This document shows, in pieces, positions 4,032-63,404 of a stretch of 64,000 nucleotides of DNA. The stretch's first letter is position 1; the number at the start of each line of letters is the position of its first letter. The stretch spans positions 1 to 64,000 of the forward strand of contig NZ_BAKI01000007.1 in NCBI RefSeq assembly GCF_000583655.1. Direction: 5' to 3'. The notes under the pieces were generated by a model that saw only the letters and a list, made by a program, of their open reading frames with translations, made no database searches and was not told where the DNA came from. Source of the DNA: Lentilactobacillus farraginis DSM 18382 = JCM 14108 (GTDB taxonomy: Bacteria > Bacillota > Bacilli > Lactobacillales > Lactobacillaceae). The position numbers were made by a program, and so were the translations under genes.

Positions 4032-5014
4032 TTATCTATTTTTAACATTTTTCAACAGCGGCCGCCACCACTCTGGATGGATGACATACCAGTCAATTGT
4101 GTCACCAATTCCGGTCTCAAAGTCAAATTCCGGTTGCCAACCCAACTGTCGGCGAATCTTAGTATCATTAATGGCATAACCAGTATCGTTGGCTGGGCGA
4201 TCCGCCACAAATTTAATTTGTGGCTGCCAGGCCGCCAACTGTTTTTTAATTCTATTCACAACCTGCAGATTTGTTCGATACTGATGCGCAGCGACATTAT
4301 AAATCTCACCGGGCCGGCCGTTTTCCATCACCAGCTCGATTGCCCGACAATTATCGTCAACATTGAGCCAATCCCGCTGTTTTGACCGTTACCGTATATC
4401 GGCAATGTTCGCCCACGTAATGTGTTTGTAACCATTAAGGGAATCAATTTTTCGGGAAACTGATAGCGGCCATAATTATTAGCCGATCGCGTAATACATA
4501 GTGGCACCCCAAATGTTTTAAAGTAAGACAACGCCAACAAGTCGGCCGCCGCTTTACTGGCAGCATACGGTGAACTGGGATTCAGCCGAGCATTTTCATC
4601 GGCCGGGAAGCGACTGGTTGTCGGCCCGTAAACTTCGTCGGTAGAAATCTGAATAAACTTTTTAAGCCGATACTTTCGGACCGCTTCCAACAATGTTTTC
4701 ACACCTAAAAAGTTACTGTGAATAAACGGGGCTGCATCCAGGATTGAACGATCCACATGCGATTCAGCCGCAAAATTAACGACAACATCAATTTGATTAT
4801 CGTAAATAACAGCTTCAGCAGCCTGCCGGTTCGCAATATCTCCTTTCACAAAAACATAGTTGGCCTGCGGTGAAATGTCAGCCAGGTTGGATAAATGACC
4901 AGCATAAGTCAATAAATCAAAATTAACTATCCGATCGTCAGGGTGGTTACGCAATAATTGGCGAATAAAATTTGAACCGATAAACCCGGCACCACCGGTA
5001 ACAAGAATGTTCAC
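4032..5014 (-). pseudogene. rfbB: dTDP-glucose 4,6-dehydratase, frameshifted
   Basis: Catalyses the second step of dTDP-L-rhamnose synthesis. The N-terminal part (5014 down to about 4384) shows the Rossmann motif GGAGFIGSN, the catalytic Thr (QISTDEVYG) and YxxxK (YAASK). It then runs into an aberrant tail. The following frame, up to the stop at 4032, supplies the missing DWLNVDDNCRAIELVMENGR and GEIYNVAAH. The two frames join by restoring one C in a CC pair near 4373-4384. The complete protein would be about 328 residues, normal for the family. GTG start with AAAGGAAG upstream. No rfbA, rfbC or rfbD lies alongside, so this is an orphan copy. The break may be a sequencing indel or a true mutation. 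Confidence 0.9.
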
Positions 5015-5097: not shown

Positions 5098-5232
5098 GAG
5101 CGTGGGCCGAAAAGCGGTTAACTTTCAGAGCGTAATCGAATTATTCGAATATTTCAGGCTGGAATGTTTGGATAATTTGATTATGTGGCAGGAAGTTGCC
5201 TTTCGGCGCACGTTTTCGCTTAGTAATAATCG
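5098..5232. repeat. Palindromic intergenic repeat, family 1, copy 1
   Basis: About 130 bp that match the repeat at 60589 with roughly 85-90% identity from GGTTAACTTTCAGAGC onward. The core is an imperfect palindrome around a 7-base centre CAGGCTG (5155-5161), with arms such as TAATCGAATTATTCGAATAT and TTTGGATAATTTGATTAT. A short open frame exists here and in the other copy, but the differences between copies mostly change amino acids, so the hairpin, not a peptide, appears to be what is kept. Confidence 0.85.
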
Positions 5233-5314
5233 CGATCACACACAAAAGGCTGGACAAAATTACTTTGCCTCAGCCCCATGTTTCCTACGATTATTACCGA
5301 GTGAGAATGTGCGC
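5206..5314. repeat. Second inverted repeat attached to repeat copy 1
   Basis: Two 27-bp arms (5206-5232 and 5288-5314, beginning GCGCAC and ending TAATAATCG / its complement) match with about 6 differences and flank a smaller GGCTG...CAGCC hairpin. The left arm is also the right end of the family-1 palindrome, so this is a compound element. Confidence 0.75.
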
Positions 5315-5384
5315 TAAATAGTAACTTTCCGTCCCACTCTTTTAAATTAATTGCCCCGATACTAAAATTATTATCCCAATTAAT

Positions 5385-9798: not shown

Positions 9799-10503
9799 CT
9801 AATGACAAACCGTTTGAACAAGCGTCGCAGCAATCCCGCCGACCAATGGGCCAAACATCGGCACCCATGCATAATTCCATTCAGCACTGCCTTTGTTGGG
9901 AACCGGCAGTAGGGTGTACGCTAATCTTGGCCCCCAGTCCCGGGCAGGATTCAGAGCAAATCCGGTTGTTGTTCCAAGCCCCATGCCAACTACCATAATC
10001 AACAAGCCAACTACCAGCGGTTTTAACCCTTGCGAAAAATCGCCTAAATTTAATAATGCAAACACAAATACAAATGTCGCAACCACTTCAGAAAAGAAAT
10101 TAGCCAACGGTGCCTTAATGGCTGGTCGAGTCGCAAAAATACCGACTGTATTGCCTTCATCAGCTTTGGTTTGCTTGAACTGTGGGCCAAACATCCCGAT
10201 AATAACGGCGGCACCTAAGAAAGCACCACAAAATTGGCCAAATAAATATGGCAAAACCTGATGCCAGGGAAAAAGACCAAATAAAGCGTATGGAATGGTT
10301 ACGGCGGGATTTAAATGCCCCAGTGAGCCGAACGACGCCGCAACATAAACCCCCATTGTAACGGCCATTCCCCATGCCAAACTGATAAACGTCCAATCGG
10401 ATCCGTGGCCGTAAGTCTGTTTCAAGTTTACCCCGGCACCGGTTCCGGCACCCAACACGATTAAGACAAAAGTTCCAAATAATTCTCCAAGAAAGCCATC
10501 CAT
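9799..10503 (-). CDS. glpF: Glycerol uptake facilitator / aquaglyceroporin
   Basis: MIP-family channel of 234 residues with six membrane helices for passive glycerol and water transport. Both half-helix signatures are present: NPAVT (about 67-71) and NPARD (about 187-191). The Asp after the second NPA box marks the glycerol-conducting subgroup rather than pure aquaporins. ATG start at 10503. With dhaT nearby this fits glycerol use as an electron sink, though the two genes are separate units. The broken MFS gene ends 20 bases upstream on the same strand. Confidence 0.93.
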   Translation of the reverse strand: MDGFLGELFGTFVLIVLGAGTGAGVNLKQTYGHGSDWTFISLAWGMAVTMGVYVAASFGSLGHLNPAVTIPYALFGLFPWHQVLPYLFGQFCGAFLGAAVIIGMFGPQFKQTKADEGNTVGIFATRPAIKAPLANFFSEVVATFVFVFALLNLGDFSQGLKPLVVGLLIMVVGMGLGTTTGFALNPARDWGPRLAYTLLPVPNKGSAEWNYAWVPMFGPLVGGIAATLVQTVCH

Positions 10504-10523
10504 GGCTCATCCCCACTTTCAGT

Positions 10524-11680
10524 TTACAAACTTTGCGGGGCAAACTTCCGATTCAGTCGATTCAGCCAAACAACCAAAATAAACGTTACCAACGTATAGC
10601 CGGCGCCCCCTGGCCCAACCGAACTCATGCCAAAATTACTAACCAGCATCCCGCCCGTTGCCGATCCGAGCGCAATCCCAAAATTGGAAAAAATCGAATT
10701 TAAAGAAGATGCCAGCACAATTGACTGCGGGTAAGCTTTTTCCGCCACCTGCAGAAATTGAATTTGAATCGGTGAATTTAACAGCGGCATGCTAATAATC
10801 AACATCATCAAAAGAATTGCACCAAACCAACTATAATGGAACGAAAGCGGCATGACAACCATCAAAATAAACTGGCCGGTATAAACTTTGGGCATTGCAG
10901 ACAACCCTGGTCCTTCCGTTAACTTCCCACTGACCTGATTACCAATAATATTGGCAACGCCGAAAACAAACAGCAATACCGTTAACATCGTTGTTGAAAA
11001 GTGCAGCCGGGTAGTAATAATTGGTCGTAAATAAGTATAAAATACATAAATCGCCGCCAGATTAAACATCGGTAAAAACATCCCGATTTGAATACGATGA
11101 TCCTTTAATAGGGCCAGTTGGCCACGAATGCTGCTACTTTTTTGCTTAAAATCACGCGGTAGCACGCCCAAAATCAAAACCATTGTGATCAGTGAAATCC
11201 CGATAATCGTTAAAAACGAAATCCGCCAGCCAAAATTGGTTGAAATCCAGGTTCCCAATGGCACCCCAAGTACTGAGGCAATGCTGAAACCGGAAAATAC
11301 CCATGACAGCAGCCAGCCTCTTTTTGGCCATTGGCGAAATATAACCGACAAACGAAAGAGCAATGGAAATCGTTACGCCGGAAACCAACGCGGTAATCAT
11401 CCGTGAAATCACCAAAAAAGTAAAGTTTTTTGCGATAAAGCTCAAGATATTGCCAACTGTAAAGATCCCCATCAAAGCCAACAAGCTCCAAAAAGGATGA
11501 TAAACGGTGTGCTAACCGCATACACCATCGCAAAAATCATAACCAGATAGCCACTGCGGCAACAGAGACATTAAACTGGTTTAAAAGGTCATCCCAAATC
11601 CCCACAATCAAGAATTCACTGAACCCCAACGTAAATGCAATCAATACCAATACAAAGCTTTGTACTTTGAACTGCTTCAT
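10524..11680 (-). pseudogene. MFS transporter (DHA1-type), multiply frameshifted
   Basis: Major facilitator permease of roughly 390 residues when reconstructed, starting at ATG 11680 (MKQFKVQSFVLVLIAFTLGF), 9 bases after AAGGAAG. At least three single-base shifts break it: one G missing near 11558, one T missing near 11497 and one extra G near 11308. The joined protein reads continuously as a 12-helix DHA1-type exporter similar to AraJ/PbuE-like members. The substrate is unknown. Upstream lies a short leader ORF with its own promoter and a terminator, and a cre-like site. Clustering of three shifts in one gene makes true decay somewhat more plausible here than elsewhere. Confidence 0.8.
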
Positions 11681-11985: not shown

Positions 11986-12106
11986 AGTGTGCGAAGCAAA
12001 ACGGTTAGCACCCGGCGCATAAGGCGTCAAAGCGAGAAATCCCGAGCTTGGATTTTTCGCTTTGATCCCTTATGCTCCGGGTGTTAACCACTTTGCTCCG
12101 CACACT
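11986..12106. repeat. Palindromic repeat, family 2, at the hisD stop codon
   Basis: A 121-bp palindrome: two 57-base arms (11986-12042, 12050-12106) with about 7-8 differences around the 7-base centre CGAGCTT. The outer end AGTGTGCG overlaps the hisD stop, so that TAG TGTG is shared between gene and repeat. The same element is present in three tandem units after corA (62187-62497). As RNA it would form a very long hairpin at the 3' end of the hisD transcript. Confidence 0.9.
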
Positions 12107-13381
12107 AATCAAACCTACTCTCGATCGCTCTTGCGTGCGCCTCCAAGCCCTCTACTCTAGCCAGCGTTGTGATAGCCTCGGCCTCCTTTTTGAGTGCTGG
12201 GCGCGTATAAGAAACAAACTGGGTTCGCTTTACGAAATCCTGCACGCCTAACGGGGAGAAGAAACGAGCGGTTCCTCCCGTTGGTAGAATGTGATTAGGG
12301 CCGGCAATGTAATCACCAACCGGTTCAGATGCAGAGAAGCCTAGAAAGACTGAGCCGGCATTTTGAATTTGGTTTAAATAAGAAATTGCATCTGGTAATT
12401 GAACTTCCAAATGTTCCGGCGCAACTGCATTCATTAATGTAAAGGCGTCATCGATATCTTTGACAACGGCAATGAAGCTTCATTATCCATTGCCGCCTGG
12501 GCAATCTCTTGCCGTGGCAATAGTTTAACTTGTCGATCCAGTTCGGCATTAACATTGATAGCCAATTCTTTGTCATCCGTTACCAAAATCGGTCGGGCCA
12601 GCTTATCATGTTCAGCTTGTGATAATAAATCTGCGGCTACTTGGCTGGGAACTGCCGGTTTGCTGGCGATAACACCAATTTCAGATGGCCCTGCAATCAT
12701 ATCGATGTCGACCTGACCGAAAACCTGCTTTTTGGCTGTTGCAACATACGCATTACCAGGACCGGTAATCTTATCGACTCGTGGAATTGTTTCTGTTCCA
12801 TAAGCCAAACTGGCAATGGCTTGTGCGCCGCCAACCGTATAGATTTCGTCAACCCCGGCAATTTTAGCAGCTGCCAAAACAGCCTTATTTAGACCATCGG
12901 TTTGGGGTGGTGTCACCATCACTACCCGTTTAACACCGGCAATTTTAGCCGGAATAACATTCATTAAAATTGAAGATGGATAAGCTGCCGTACCACCTGG
13001 GACGTAAACTCCGACTGCTGCCAATGGGGCAATTTTTTCACCCCGAATAACCCCTTTTTGCTTTGCGTCAACAAAGCTATCTTCAACTTCCATTTTGTGA
13101 AATGAGGTAATATTTTTTTTAGCCAATTCCAGTGCATCAATAACCGACTGATCGGTATCATTATACGCCGCTTCAATTTCAGCCTGCGTAACCGCCAAAC
13201 TGTCCAGCTCAACCCGGTCAAATTTCTTTTCGTAATCCTTAACGGCTTGATCACCGTTTTGAATCACGTTTGCGATGATTTCCCGAACCGACTTTTCAAC
13301 TTCCTCACGATTGGCAACCTTACTTGTCCGAATTTCAACCTGTTTCAACATTTGTTCCAAGGGTTCTTCAATAATTTGCAT
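12105..13381 (-). pseudogene. hisD: Histidinol dehydrogenase, frameshifted orphan
   Basis: Zinc- and NAD-dependent enzyme for the last two steps of histidine synthesis. Family motifs are clear: KITGPGNAYVATAKKQVFG, DMIAGPSEIGVIA, LLSQAEHD and, in the second frame, APEHLEV and GPNHILPT. The first frame ends in an aberrant tail at 12434; restoring one T (TTT for TT near 12476-12480) joins it to FIAVVKDIDDAFTLMNAVAP. The rebuilt protein is about 425 residues, normal for HisD. ATG at 13381 chosen because GGAG lies 8 bases upstream. A histidine T-box precedes it, but no other his gene is adjacent; normally hisD sits inside a his operon. The gene ends inside a palindromic repeat. Confidence 0.92.
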
Positions 13382-13720
13382 TCCTGTCACTCCGTTCCCA
13401 ATAAATAATCAGCTGCGGTCAGACTTTTTAACAATAAAAAATCGTCCTCAGATATTGTTATCCAATACCTGAGGACGATTTCTCGCGGTCCCACCTCATT
13501 TTGCCGCCACCTCACGATGAAACGACCTTACACTGTCTGCAACTAGTCGTCCATTAGTAATGAAGAACAGTTACAGCAGCCGTGGTAACGCTCACTAGCG
13601 GGACAACCTACTTGGTTCAATTATCCAGTTCATAGATGTGTTTTCAGCAATACCAACAATCCGTTCTCACCGCCGGGACTCTCTTTATGTTAGTTCATCG
13701 CTTACTTTTCTAATCGTAAC
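13382..13720 (-). promoter_or_regulatory. T-box riboswitch (histidine) upstream of hisD
   Basis: The T-box motif AATGAGGTGGGACCGCGAG is at 13482-13500 and is followed by a terminator stem ATCGTCCTCAG...CTGAGGACGAT (13441-13479) and a T run. A CAC triplet (13638-13640) after TGAAAA, followed by ATC, sits in the specifier position and encodes histidine. The upstream boundary is approximate. Confidence 0.93.
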
Positions 13721-60164: not shown

Positions 60165-60586
60165 ATGACAAAAACGCAAATGTTCCAATTTTGATTGGAC
60201 TAACATTAGGCACGCTTCTAACAGCCGGTTCGGCAGCCTCAGCCAAAAACATCCCCACTAAGCCAATCCCGGCAGCACTGCGAGGTACTTGGAAGGGCGC
60301 CTATCGAGCTTCAGATGCTGGTTACCCCTTTAAAATGATAATTTCAAAGTACGCGTTATCTCAAAATGGGAACCGCTTCTACCTGCAGTCAAATCCTACC
60401 AGTAAGAATCCCCATGATTTTATAATGAGCGCCAAACCAAATAAAAAAGGTTATTGGAAATTTACACTAACAGCCAGTCACGATAATATGTATCTAAAAA
60501 GAATCCGTAAGAACGGTAAACCAGTTCTCATCAGGTATTCCTACGACACTCACAAAAAACCGGTTATTCAATATCTTTATCATTAA
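60165..60586 (+). pseudogene. Small secreted protein, frameshifted in the signal peptide
   Basis: About 140 residues when rebuilt. ATG at 60165 with GGAGGTGG upstream; the first codons MTK run out of frame at an A5 tract. Adding one A gives MTKNANVPILIGLTLGTLLT followed by a normal cleavage region (AGSAASAKN). The mature part begins IPAALRGTWKGAY and looks like the small lipocalin-like/beta-barrel secreted proteins common in lactobacilli. The stop at 60584-60586 is followed two bases later by the family-1 palindromic repeat. Confidence 0.75.
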
Positions 60587-60588
60587 AA

Positions 60589-60705
60589 GAGTGAAACGAA
60601 AGGCGGTTAACTTTCAGAGCATAATCGAATTATCCGAATATTCCGGGCTTGAATGTTTGGATAATTTGATGATGTGGCAGGAAGTTGGCTTTCGCTCCAC
60701 GTTTC
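60589..60705. repeat. Palindromic intergenic repeat, family 1, copy 2
   Basis: 117 bp beginning two bases after a stop codon. Two 55-base arms surround the 7-base centre CGGGCTT (60644-60650). The inner 23 bases of each arm pair with four differences; the outer parts pair with small bulges. It matches the copy at 5098 and shares the GGTTAAC block, the GAGCATAA block and the loop type with family 2. Confidence 0.87.
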
Positions 60706-62186: not shown

Positions 62187-62497
62187 GTACAGGACTGCTG
62201 TGCTAACCCGCAAGCCCACTCCGAACGTTAACTGTTTTGTTTCGCACACTGGTTGAGGACTGCTTCACAAAGCAACGTTCTGCATGTAAGGGATTTATTT
62301 CAAAAATCCAAGCCCGGGATTTTCGAAATAAACGCCTTACACTCCGAACGTTAACCGCTTTGTTTCGCACACTGGTTGAGGACTGCTCCGCAAAACAACA
62401 CCACTCCACATAAGGGATCAAATCGAAAAATCCAAGCCCAGGATTTCCCGCTTTGACGCCTTATGCTCCGGGTGTTAACCGTTTTGCTCCGCACACT
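62187..62497. repeat. Three tandem family-2 palindromic repeats after corA
   Basis: Two complete units (62253-62373 with centre AAGCCCG, 62377-62497 with centre AAGCCCA) and one internally shortened unit ending at 62250 (centre AAGCCCA). Right ends repeat every 123-124 bp and are joined by GGTTGAGGACTGC. Each complete unit has 57-base arms; the inner 25 bases pair well, the outer parts are more diverged. The last unit overlaps the corA stop codon by two bases, exactly as at hisD. Confidence 0.88.
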
Positions 62498-63404
62498 ATA
62501 TCTTGTGCCTCATTCTCAACATGACCAGCAGCCAAACAATTAGCGTGATTGATATCAAAATCACAATAATCCAAGCATCAGCCATTTTTGACAGCGGTAA
62601 CGCCACGTTCATGCCATAAAAGCCCGTAATAATAGTTGGTACTGCCATTGTTAATGACCAAATCGTCAGAAATTTCATAGTATCGTTCAAGTTATTGTTG
62701 GCAATATTATTAAAGGTATGATCGATTCGATCGACCACTTGTGTTTCAATTTCAATCATTCGTTGAACCTGTTCAGCTTCAATTTGAACGTCCTCAAATA
62801 AATCCTTCTTATCCTGATCGGCATCCCGGCCAAAATACGTTCTCGGCAGTCGATTCAGCAGATTTAAATTAATTTGGGTTGCACTGGACAAAAACGTCAG
62901 CGTCTGCTGAAGATGGGATAACGCGATCAAGTCGGTATTTTTAGTTTTTTGGTTTAACATTTTGTCCAAGTGATTCCGTTTTTTAGACGCCTCTCTGGAA
63001 ATCGGAATGTAACTGTCAGCCAAAGAAAATAAGGCTTCCAGAATAAACGCGTCCACATTTTGAACTTCCGGATTATCAACTGCATCCCGAAAAGCAGCGT
63101 TCACTTCCCGAATGCCGCTTTCATTAAAGGTAAATAATCGGCCTTTATGAAGCAAAATCGCAAACGGCCTGGTAATATAACGTAGATTTTTTCGATCAAG
63201 CGGATAAGGTGCCAAAAAAATAAATAATTGATCGCCCTCATTAATATCGTGAACATAATTGGCACTTTCATCTTTATCAGTTACGTATGTCATAATATCT
63301 TCGTCAATCGCATACCGATCTTGAAGCAGCTGCCGTTCTTCAGCGGTTAATCGTTCCGTTTCAATCCATTTAATACCGGCAACTTGCCGTTCCGGTCTTA
63401 TCAT
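62496..63404 (-). CDS. corA: CorA-family magnesium transporter
   Basis: 302-residue divalent cation channel. A large cytoplasmic N-terminal domain is followed by two C-terminal helices with the diagnostic YGMN loop (FYGMNVALPL) between them and a basic tail (MLRMRHKI). The preceding LTIWSLTMAVPTIITGFYGM is the pore helix. ATG at 63404 with GGGGGG upstream; 15 earlier codons are open without a ribosome site. The TAG stop (62496-62498) overlaps the end of a palindromic repeat. Magnesium or cobalt transport inferred from family. Confidence 0.93.
   Translation of the reverse strand: MIRPERQVAGIKWIETERLTAEERQLLQDRYAIDEDIMTYVTDKDESANYVHDINEGDQLFIFLAPYPLDRKNLRYITRPFAILLHKGRLFTFNESGIREVNAAFRDAVDNPEVQNVDAFILEALFSLADSYIPISREASKKRNHLDKMLNQKTKNTDLIALSHLQQTLTFLSSATQINLNLLNRLPRTYFGRDADQDKKDLFEDVQIEAEQVQRMIEIETQVVDRIDHTFNNIANNNLNDTMKFLTIWSLTMAVPTIITGFYGMNVALPLSKMADAWIIVILISITLIVWLLVMLRMRHKI

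Follow-up and report, generated by a model that had tools for sequence, protein, structure and literature searches.

A palindrome behind hisD of Lentilactobacillus farraginis is one copy of a Lactobacillaceae hairpin-repeat family often placed at stop codons

The window analyzed here is a stretch of 64,000 nt from Lentilactobacillus farraginis DSM 18382 = JCM 14108 (contig NZ_BAKI01000007.1, positions 1 to 64,000). Directly behind hisD, which is encoded on the minus strand and ends GAT TAG, positions 11986..12106 form a 121-nt palindrome with two arms of 57 nt each (11986-12042 and 12050-12106) and a 7-nt loop. The arms are complementary at 49 of 57 positions, and none of 200 shuffled sequences folded as well as the palindrome (minimum free energy -85.7 kcal/mol, z -15.7), which confirmed the initial annotation on this point. 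The AG of the hisD stop codon coincides with the first two bases of the repeat. The corA gene, also on the minus strand, ends ATA TAG, and its AG overlaps the first unit of an array (62497-62191). The repeat features of the window are as follows:

11986..12106, plus strand: mirrored (fully palindromic) unit behind hisD; covariance model score 86.9 bits on the plus and 78.4 bits on the minus strand
12105..12107, minus strand: hisD stop codon TAG, its AG shared with the repeat end
62496..62498, minus strand: corA stop codon TAG, its AG shared with unit 1
62379..62497, minus strand: unit 1 of the corA array, 130.2 bits
62374..62378, minus strand: first linker of the corA array, CAACC, separating its units 1 and 2
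62256..62373, minus strand: unit 2 of the corA array, with a different mid-stem type, 130.4 bits
62251..62255, minus strand: second linker CAACC of the corA array, identical to the first
62191..62250, minus strand: unit 3 of the corA array, internally deleted, 27.7 bits
60588..60704, plus strand: sister-form unit (AGAGTG..ACGTTT), 52.4 bits, starting one base 3' of the TAA of the ORF 60191-60586
5099..5215, plus strand: sister-form unit, 50.0 bits, 84 nt before the divergent ORF 4328-5014 (minus strand)
5284..5340, minus strand: facing piece (AGAGTGGGACGG..TCGGTAATAATCG), recognized by eye without a model match

The facing piece is probably a truncated sister-form unit. It shares the inverted tail CGGTAATAATCG with the sister-form unit on the plus strand, and the two form an inverted repeat at 5184-5336. 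Six of the 51 arrays of this genome belong to the sister form (L137, L145, L149, L153, L154, and L186).

The T|AG junction that had been noted at both genes was verified from the stop positions (12107-12105 and 62498-62496). The further claim that corA shows the same arrangement as hisD held for this junction but not for the palindrome, as the corA array consists of two full units and one internally deleted unit. In addition, a normal unit ends with GCAGTCCT, whereas the hisD copy shows the mirrored CGCACACT instead. The latter copy is atypical. Its core lies in unit orientation on the plus strand, and the outer 38 nt of its 3' arm are the reverse complement of a 5' arm, as though one arm had served as the template for the other. 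The repeat was also said to supply the AG of the hisD stop. The bases are indeed shared, but they may be native to the gene, since hisD of an array-free relative (G003) already has the end RFD-TAG. NCBIfam matches support hisD as two fragments in different frames, and the match of corA is below the cut-off. The named sequence neighbors of hisD belong to Lentilactobacillus; across the C-terminal part, identity to L. parafarraginis is 96%. The two hisD ORFs (window 12105-13390) are separated by a break near 12434, and an MFS transporter gene at about 10160-11530 is similarly broken in several places; the broken frames represent either assembly errors or pseudogenes.

In a blastn search, the palindrome had 82 matches in its own genome, which comprises 2.84 Mb in 129 contigs. 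These resolve to units of ~119 nt that run from AGTGTGCGgAgC to GCAGTCCT and are arranged head to tail with linkers of 4-7 nt. The covariance model R1 was built from 39 aligned units, which are 114-119 nt long, start with AGTG, and end with GTCCT. The search of the genome and its relatives with such a model, as the initial annotation had proposed, revealed at least 122 matches in the own genome at E <= 0.01. Leaving out 33 of them (32 opposite-strand overlaps and one 36-nt piece), the genome holds at least 89 unit-strand copies in at least 51 arrays of 1-4 units (25 single, 15 double, 10 triple, and 1 quadruple), with one orientation per array. This count is a lower bound: 150 of 1461 candidates were scored, and an unfiltered scan of the window added two units (60588-60704 and 5099-5215). 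The sister species (G019) gave 55 matches, from which 18 opposite-strand overlaps were subtracted.

At E <= 1e-6, R1 detected copies in at least 79 of 301 Lactobacillaceae genomes and at least 18 of 40 genera. Under stricter filters, copies were present in at least 16 of 24 genomes of the genus and at least 4 of 13 genomes from other genera of the family, several genomes carrying at least 60 units; among the matches listed, none fell into the 23 genomes of other families of the order. Eight of the 24 genus genomes had no copies among the matches listed under these filters, and the element is thus dispensable. A diverged three-unit array was found 3' of the hisD stop of a Lactobacillus sp. MAG (L066), before a gene that we take from its sequence and place to be hisB. 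A further unit start, mostly truncated or decayed, follows on the 3' side in 44 of 76 arrays. Scaffold gaps (N runs) of G019 partly begin inside arrays (L242, L243, L256, and the L267-L269 region). Short-read assemblies break in arrays, and units are therefore probably undercounted in drafts. We conclude that the palindrome is one copy of a hairpin-repeat family that is restricted to Lactobacillaceae in this search.

Each unit folds into one long rod of four stacked helices with conserved bulges, and the first four and last five consensus bases are unpaired. In the 39 units of the own genome, 97.2% of the cells are paired, and slid controls fall to 38-46%. Within this genome, 25 of 42 pairs have changed on both sides (239 cells vs 65 in shuffles). 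Across species, 40 of 42 pairs have changed on both sides in 93 distinct units, which were aligned to R1 and hence lean towards the model. In both sets, the outermost variable pair is T-A, A-T, or C-G depending on the unit. Wobble cells (GU+UG) outnumber A-C cells (AC+CA) by 216 to 2 in the 39 own units and by 386 to 53 in the 93 cross-species rows. This excess indicates that the written strand folds, as RNA or as single-stranded DNA; in a cruciform both strands would fold, and no such asymmetry would be expected. Thus, the fold of the units is conserved through paired changes on one strand, which supports the conserved structure that had been offered as an alternative to site-preferred insertion. 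Paired changes could also arise without selection if quasi-palindromes are corrected during replication, and the hisD copy looks like such a case. As a general cause, however, this is disfavored by the conservation of wobbles and bulges and by how few A-C cells occur.

In 800 kb of G019, 15 of 25 arrays start at -2..+6 of a sense stop, compared with 2.16% of random intergenic positions and 6.6% of intergenic TAG sites. Nine of these starts lie exactly at T|AG (-2), where 0.26% are expected. The copies are therefore clearly not random relative to genes. Under a second ORF rule, the starts at sense stops amounted to 20 of 51 in the own genome, 16 of 25 in G019, and 13 of 31 in other genomes; the ORF calls are mechanical, and the own assembly contains frameshifts. 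The sample from other genomes comprised 31 of the 37 loci L028-L056 and L275-L282, six being excluded because they came from the own genome or G019, overlapped, or gave no hit. Pooled, the starts of 49 of 107 arrays fall within -2..+6 of a sense stop, with 20 exactly at T|AG, and 58 arrays lie away from sense stops by the same test. The proposal of site-preferred insertion at gene ends hence holds as a tie to stop codons, but not as an absolute one. An array 3' end falls at an antisense stop in one of the 107 cases (none in the own genome, one in G019, none in the others). Where the neighboring genes are codirectional, sense arrays outnumber antisense ones by 35 to 14 in the own genome and G019 (one-sided p 0.002) and by 11 to 5 in other genomes.

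Away from stops, TA[AG] is not enriched at array starts (18 of 50 vs a background of 28%, p 0.15; 8 of 107 arrays had been dropped because of a short flank or another unit). Six of the 50 off-stop arrays (L030, L031, L050, L054, L178, and L028) adjoin, with their 5' ends, the apparent ribosome-binding site of a divergent gene, against a motif background of 5.6%. Solo 5' repeats outside the listed arrays occurred in eight rows in the 800 kb of G019. Seven were array pieces or stood beside scaffold gaps, and the single isolated one (AGAGTGCGGATC, block B2 317702) lies away from stops; solo repeats were thus rejected as landing sites.

An array stands at the stop of corA in 3 of 15 orthologues (G000, G003, and G019), always as T|AG. 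The other 12 genes end with TAA (5), TGA (5), or TAG (2, of which that of G004 is perhaps part of a remnant), at the same place or within about a codon. Four of these 12 relatives (G005, G006, G008, and G021) carry R1 matches further 3' of corA and antisense to it (L198 2502-2620, L199 1005-1332, L200 1285-1403, and L201 2532-2815), which argues against a purely sense, stop-bound role. For hisD, 6 of 16 orthologues have an array at the stop (G000, G019, G014, G011, G017, and G004); G011 and G017 use as their stop the TGA contained in AGTGAGC. The ten hisD genes without an array at the stop include that of G005, with an antisense unit about 230 nt behind the gene, and that of G013, whose contig breaks off 71 nt past the stop. 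The ends of the hisD orthologues differ by no more than a few codons, whether an array is present or not. Taken with the antisense arrays (14 of 49), the antisense units behind corA and hisD indicate that sense transcription is not required for persistence.

Seventeen of the 51 own array sites were compared by eye with G019. A recognizable element, sometimes decayed or broken by a gap, was present at 15 of them and absent from two (L141 and L158); L143 and L145 carry the main form in one species and the sister form in the other. The empty sites at L158 and corA showed no obvious deleted hairpin (by eye, few cases), and none of the empty/filled site pairs compared had a fixed-length duplication. 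Array sites thus persist between the two species but are occupied by different units, which are similar to units at other places of their own genome. Identity is 43-89% between units at the compared orthologous sites and up to 98% between own paralogues. Of 121 units, 100 had their best match at a different locus of the same genome and 21 in the other genome (121 of 126 units were kept and shorter ones dropped; 87 of the 121 stem from the own genome, which inflates the same-genome excess).

The linkers carry traces of the flanking genes. Linker and flank could be compared in 42 of 76 arrays; in 10 of these, the first linker ends with the same four bases as the gene flank (0.87 expected; 0 of 10000 shuffles), and successive linkers are identical in 11 of 31 pairs (1.2 expected). 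Behind hisD of G019, the gene end AGCAGATTTAAGTA recurs before the second unit; this repeat of the last 14 nt (L220 2763-2930) is apparently a tandem duplication joined at the common GCAG. Insertion polarity was not supported, the first linker being no more flank-like than later ones: in 23 arrays with at least two linkers, judged by eye on the last two bases, only the first linker was flank-like in 3, only the last in 2, both in 4, and neither in 14. Mid-stem identity is lower within arrays (0.647) than between arrays (0.708), and 4997 of 5000 shuffles gave within-array values at least as high. Arrays are thus mixtures rather than simple duplications, and tandem duplication as the sole origin was rejected. 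The basal stem showed no clear array effect (409 of 5000 shuffles); array-specific basal pairs were seen by eye only (all A/T in L138, all C/G in L176). The signal for a fixed order of unit types was weak (192 of 10000 shuffles, with rough pattern typing that left 21 of 121 units untyped) and was set aside.

Several known systems resemble the family in part. EFAR of Enterococcus faecalis is a palindromic, modular, intergenic element of about 170 bp that inserts into stem-loop targets. As far as its description goes, EFAR matches the present family in being palindromic, modular, intergenic, and native to Lactobacillales. The present units, however, form head-to-tail rows of one rod type, terminator-like sites remain behind the arrays, and R1 matched none of the 23 genomes of other families of the order among the matches listed. 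Bacterial MITEs typically combine terminal inverted repeats of a known IS with a target duplication, whereas the present units are tandem, with array-specific linkers and unpaired ends; no autonomous IS relative was noticed in the loci read. The attC sites of integrons fold on one strand, have conserved ends and bulges around a free core sequence, and lie behind stop codons. The units share all of these traits, but there are no cassettes between them. Stem-loop repeats of about 100-150 bp near genes are also known as RUP, NEMIS, ERIC, BOX, and other MITEs. The RNA of NEMIS has been proposed to be cut by RNase III (PMC2229807). In PMC3733652, EFAR is counted among the MITEs, and REP elements are given as 20-40 bp long with a GTAG or CGTC tag; BIMEs alternate in orientation (PMC2817692). 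Like REP and BIME, the units are clustered extragenic palindromes of high copy number, but their length of 114-119 nt, AGTG start, and GTCCT end differ from the REP pattern.

Our preferred reading, to which we give barely more than an even chance, is that of a mobile-like hairpin-repeat family of Lactobacillaceae that spread by DNA copying and whose rod has an RNA-level role at gene ends. Arrays would grow and spread by a duplication that takes along a few flank bases, and units or cores would pass between arrays, the repeats being mobile-like and largely tolerated. As many arrays start at a stop codon, they would be transcribed as a 3' or intercistronic part of the mRNA. The rod would probably act in processing or stability, as an RNase III substrate or as a block to 3' exonucleases. 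The placement further suggests that transcription passes through the array, which would then not be a terminator. Transcription, cleavage, and an effect on mRNA are what we infer from placement and fold. Because of the antisense copies, our confidence in this reading was slightly reduced and two of its rivals were raised. The spread likely proceeds without a Y1 transposase or a reverse transcriptase. Y1 (PF01797) occurs in 7 of 24 genus genomes and is absent from 10 of the 16 array-bearing ones; reverse transcriptase (PF00078) occurs in 8 of 24 and is absent from 11 of the 16 (mostly drafts in both cases). Neither was found in 8 of the 16, and with no consistent RAYT or reverse transcriptase gene, a spread by either route was rejected.

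Stop-codon insertion by an attC-like recombinase or transposase, with new units entering next to the gene end, would account for the T|AG and TA|A junctions, the occupation of the same sites in different species, and the flank bases in the linkers. We nevertheless regard it as rather unlikely, as no enzyme was identified, 58 of 107 arrays lie off sense stops and without a motif, and the first linker was not the more flank-like one in the 23 arrays judged by eye. If units instead inserted anywhere and the harmless copies survived, the AG start would make insertion at gene ends harmless: depending on frame, the unit start itself gives a stop (T|AG, AG|TGA, or GGT|TAA), and both the hisD orthologues that end within a few codons regardless of an array and the antisense copies behind corA agree with such tolerance. 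It predicts, however, copies throughout the 3' intergenic region and on both strands, whereas the starts cluster at -2..+6 in sense and a 3' end at an antisense stop is seen in 1 of 107 arrays, and we consider this neutral explanation improbable. A non-autonomous single-stranded-DNA transposon, with the hairpin strand as the intermediate for a Y1 (HUH) transposase as in REP/RAYT or IS200/IS605, appears equally improbable. One-strand folding with conserved mismatches, the high copy number, the mobile-like distribution, the flank bases in the linkers, and a Y1 match in 6 of 16 array-bearing genus genomes are all consistent with it. On the other hand, the remaining ten, mostly drafts, lack PF01797; one of these ten is G006 (two contigs, at least 48 unit matches), which points to spread without an HUH enzyme. 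The single Y1 match of the own genome looks to us like a tnpA of the IS605 type with a tnpB-like frame behind it, its locus (L188) contains no unit, and the units lack the GTAG tag.

A role as transcription terminators or attenuators is very improbable, although stable hairpins directly behind stop codons are described as common in low-GC Firmicutes (PMC1590033). An intrinsic terminator is a GC-rich hairpin followed by a U-tract; the units end with GTCCTAAAA or similar and are followed by TAAAA, TAGAA, TCAACC, and similar sequences. By a simple detector, terminator-like sites are about as frequent behind arrays (6 of 15) as at other gene ends (131 of 416), and one array lies between hisD and hisB (L066). 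The terminator reading was rejected on these grounds.

A bolder version of the preferred reading, which we think unlikely, would see in the family a modular 3'-UTR system: stop-anchored rows of RNA rods that are interchangeable and exchange their cores among gene ends genome-wide, through a process that recognizes such ends. If true, a whole bacterial family would have a common, fast-evolving layer of post-transcriptional control. The preferred reading itself would mean that a large repeat family has molded the gene ends of lactic acid bacteria, a group with many members used in food; no recognizable description of such a family in Lactobacillaceae was found in the open-access literature. The family could then also serve to study how palindromic repeats spread when no transposase is recognized and why many settle exactly at stop codons.

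No Rfam 15 family matched the units, either in the window at gathering scores or in six array loci at E 0.1. The same searches returned a PyrR binding site at L164 3897-4014 (42.6 bits, below the cut-off of 54) and a T-box leader (RF00230, 99.3 bits) on the minus strand at 1435-1637 of the window.
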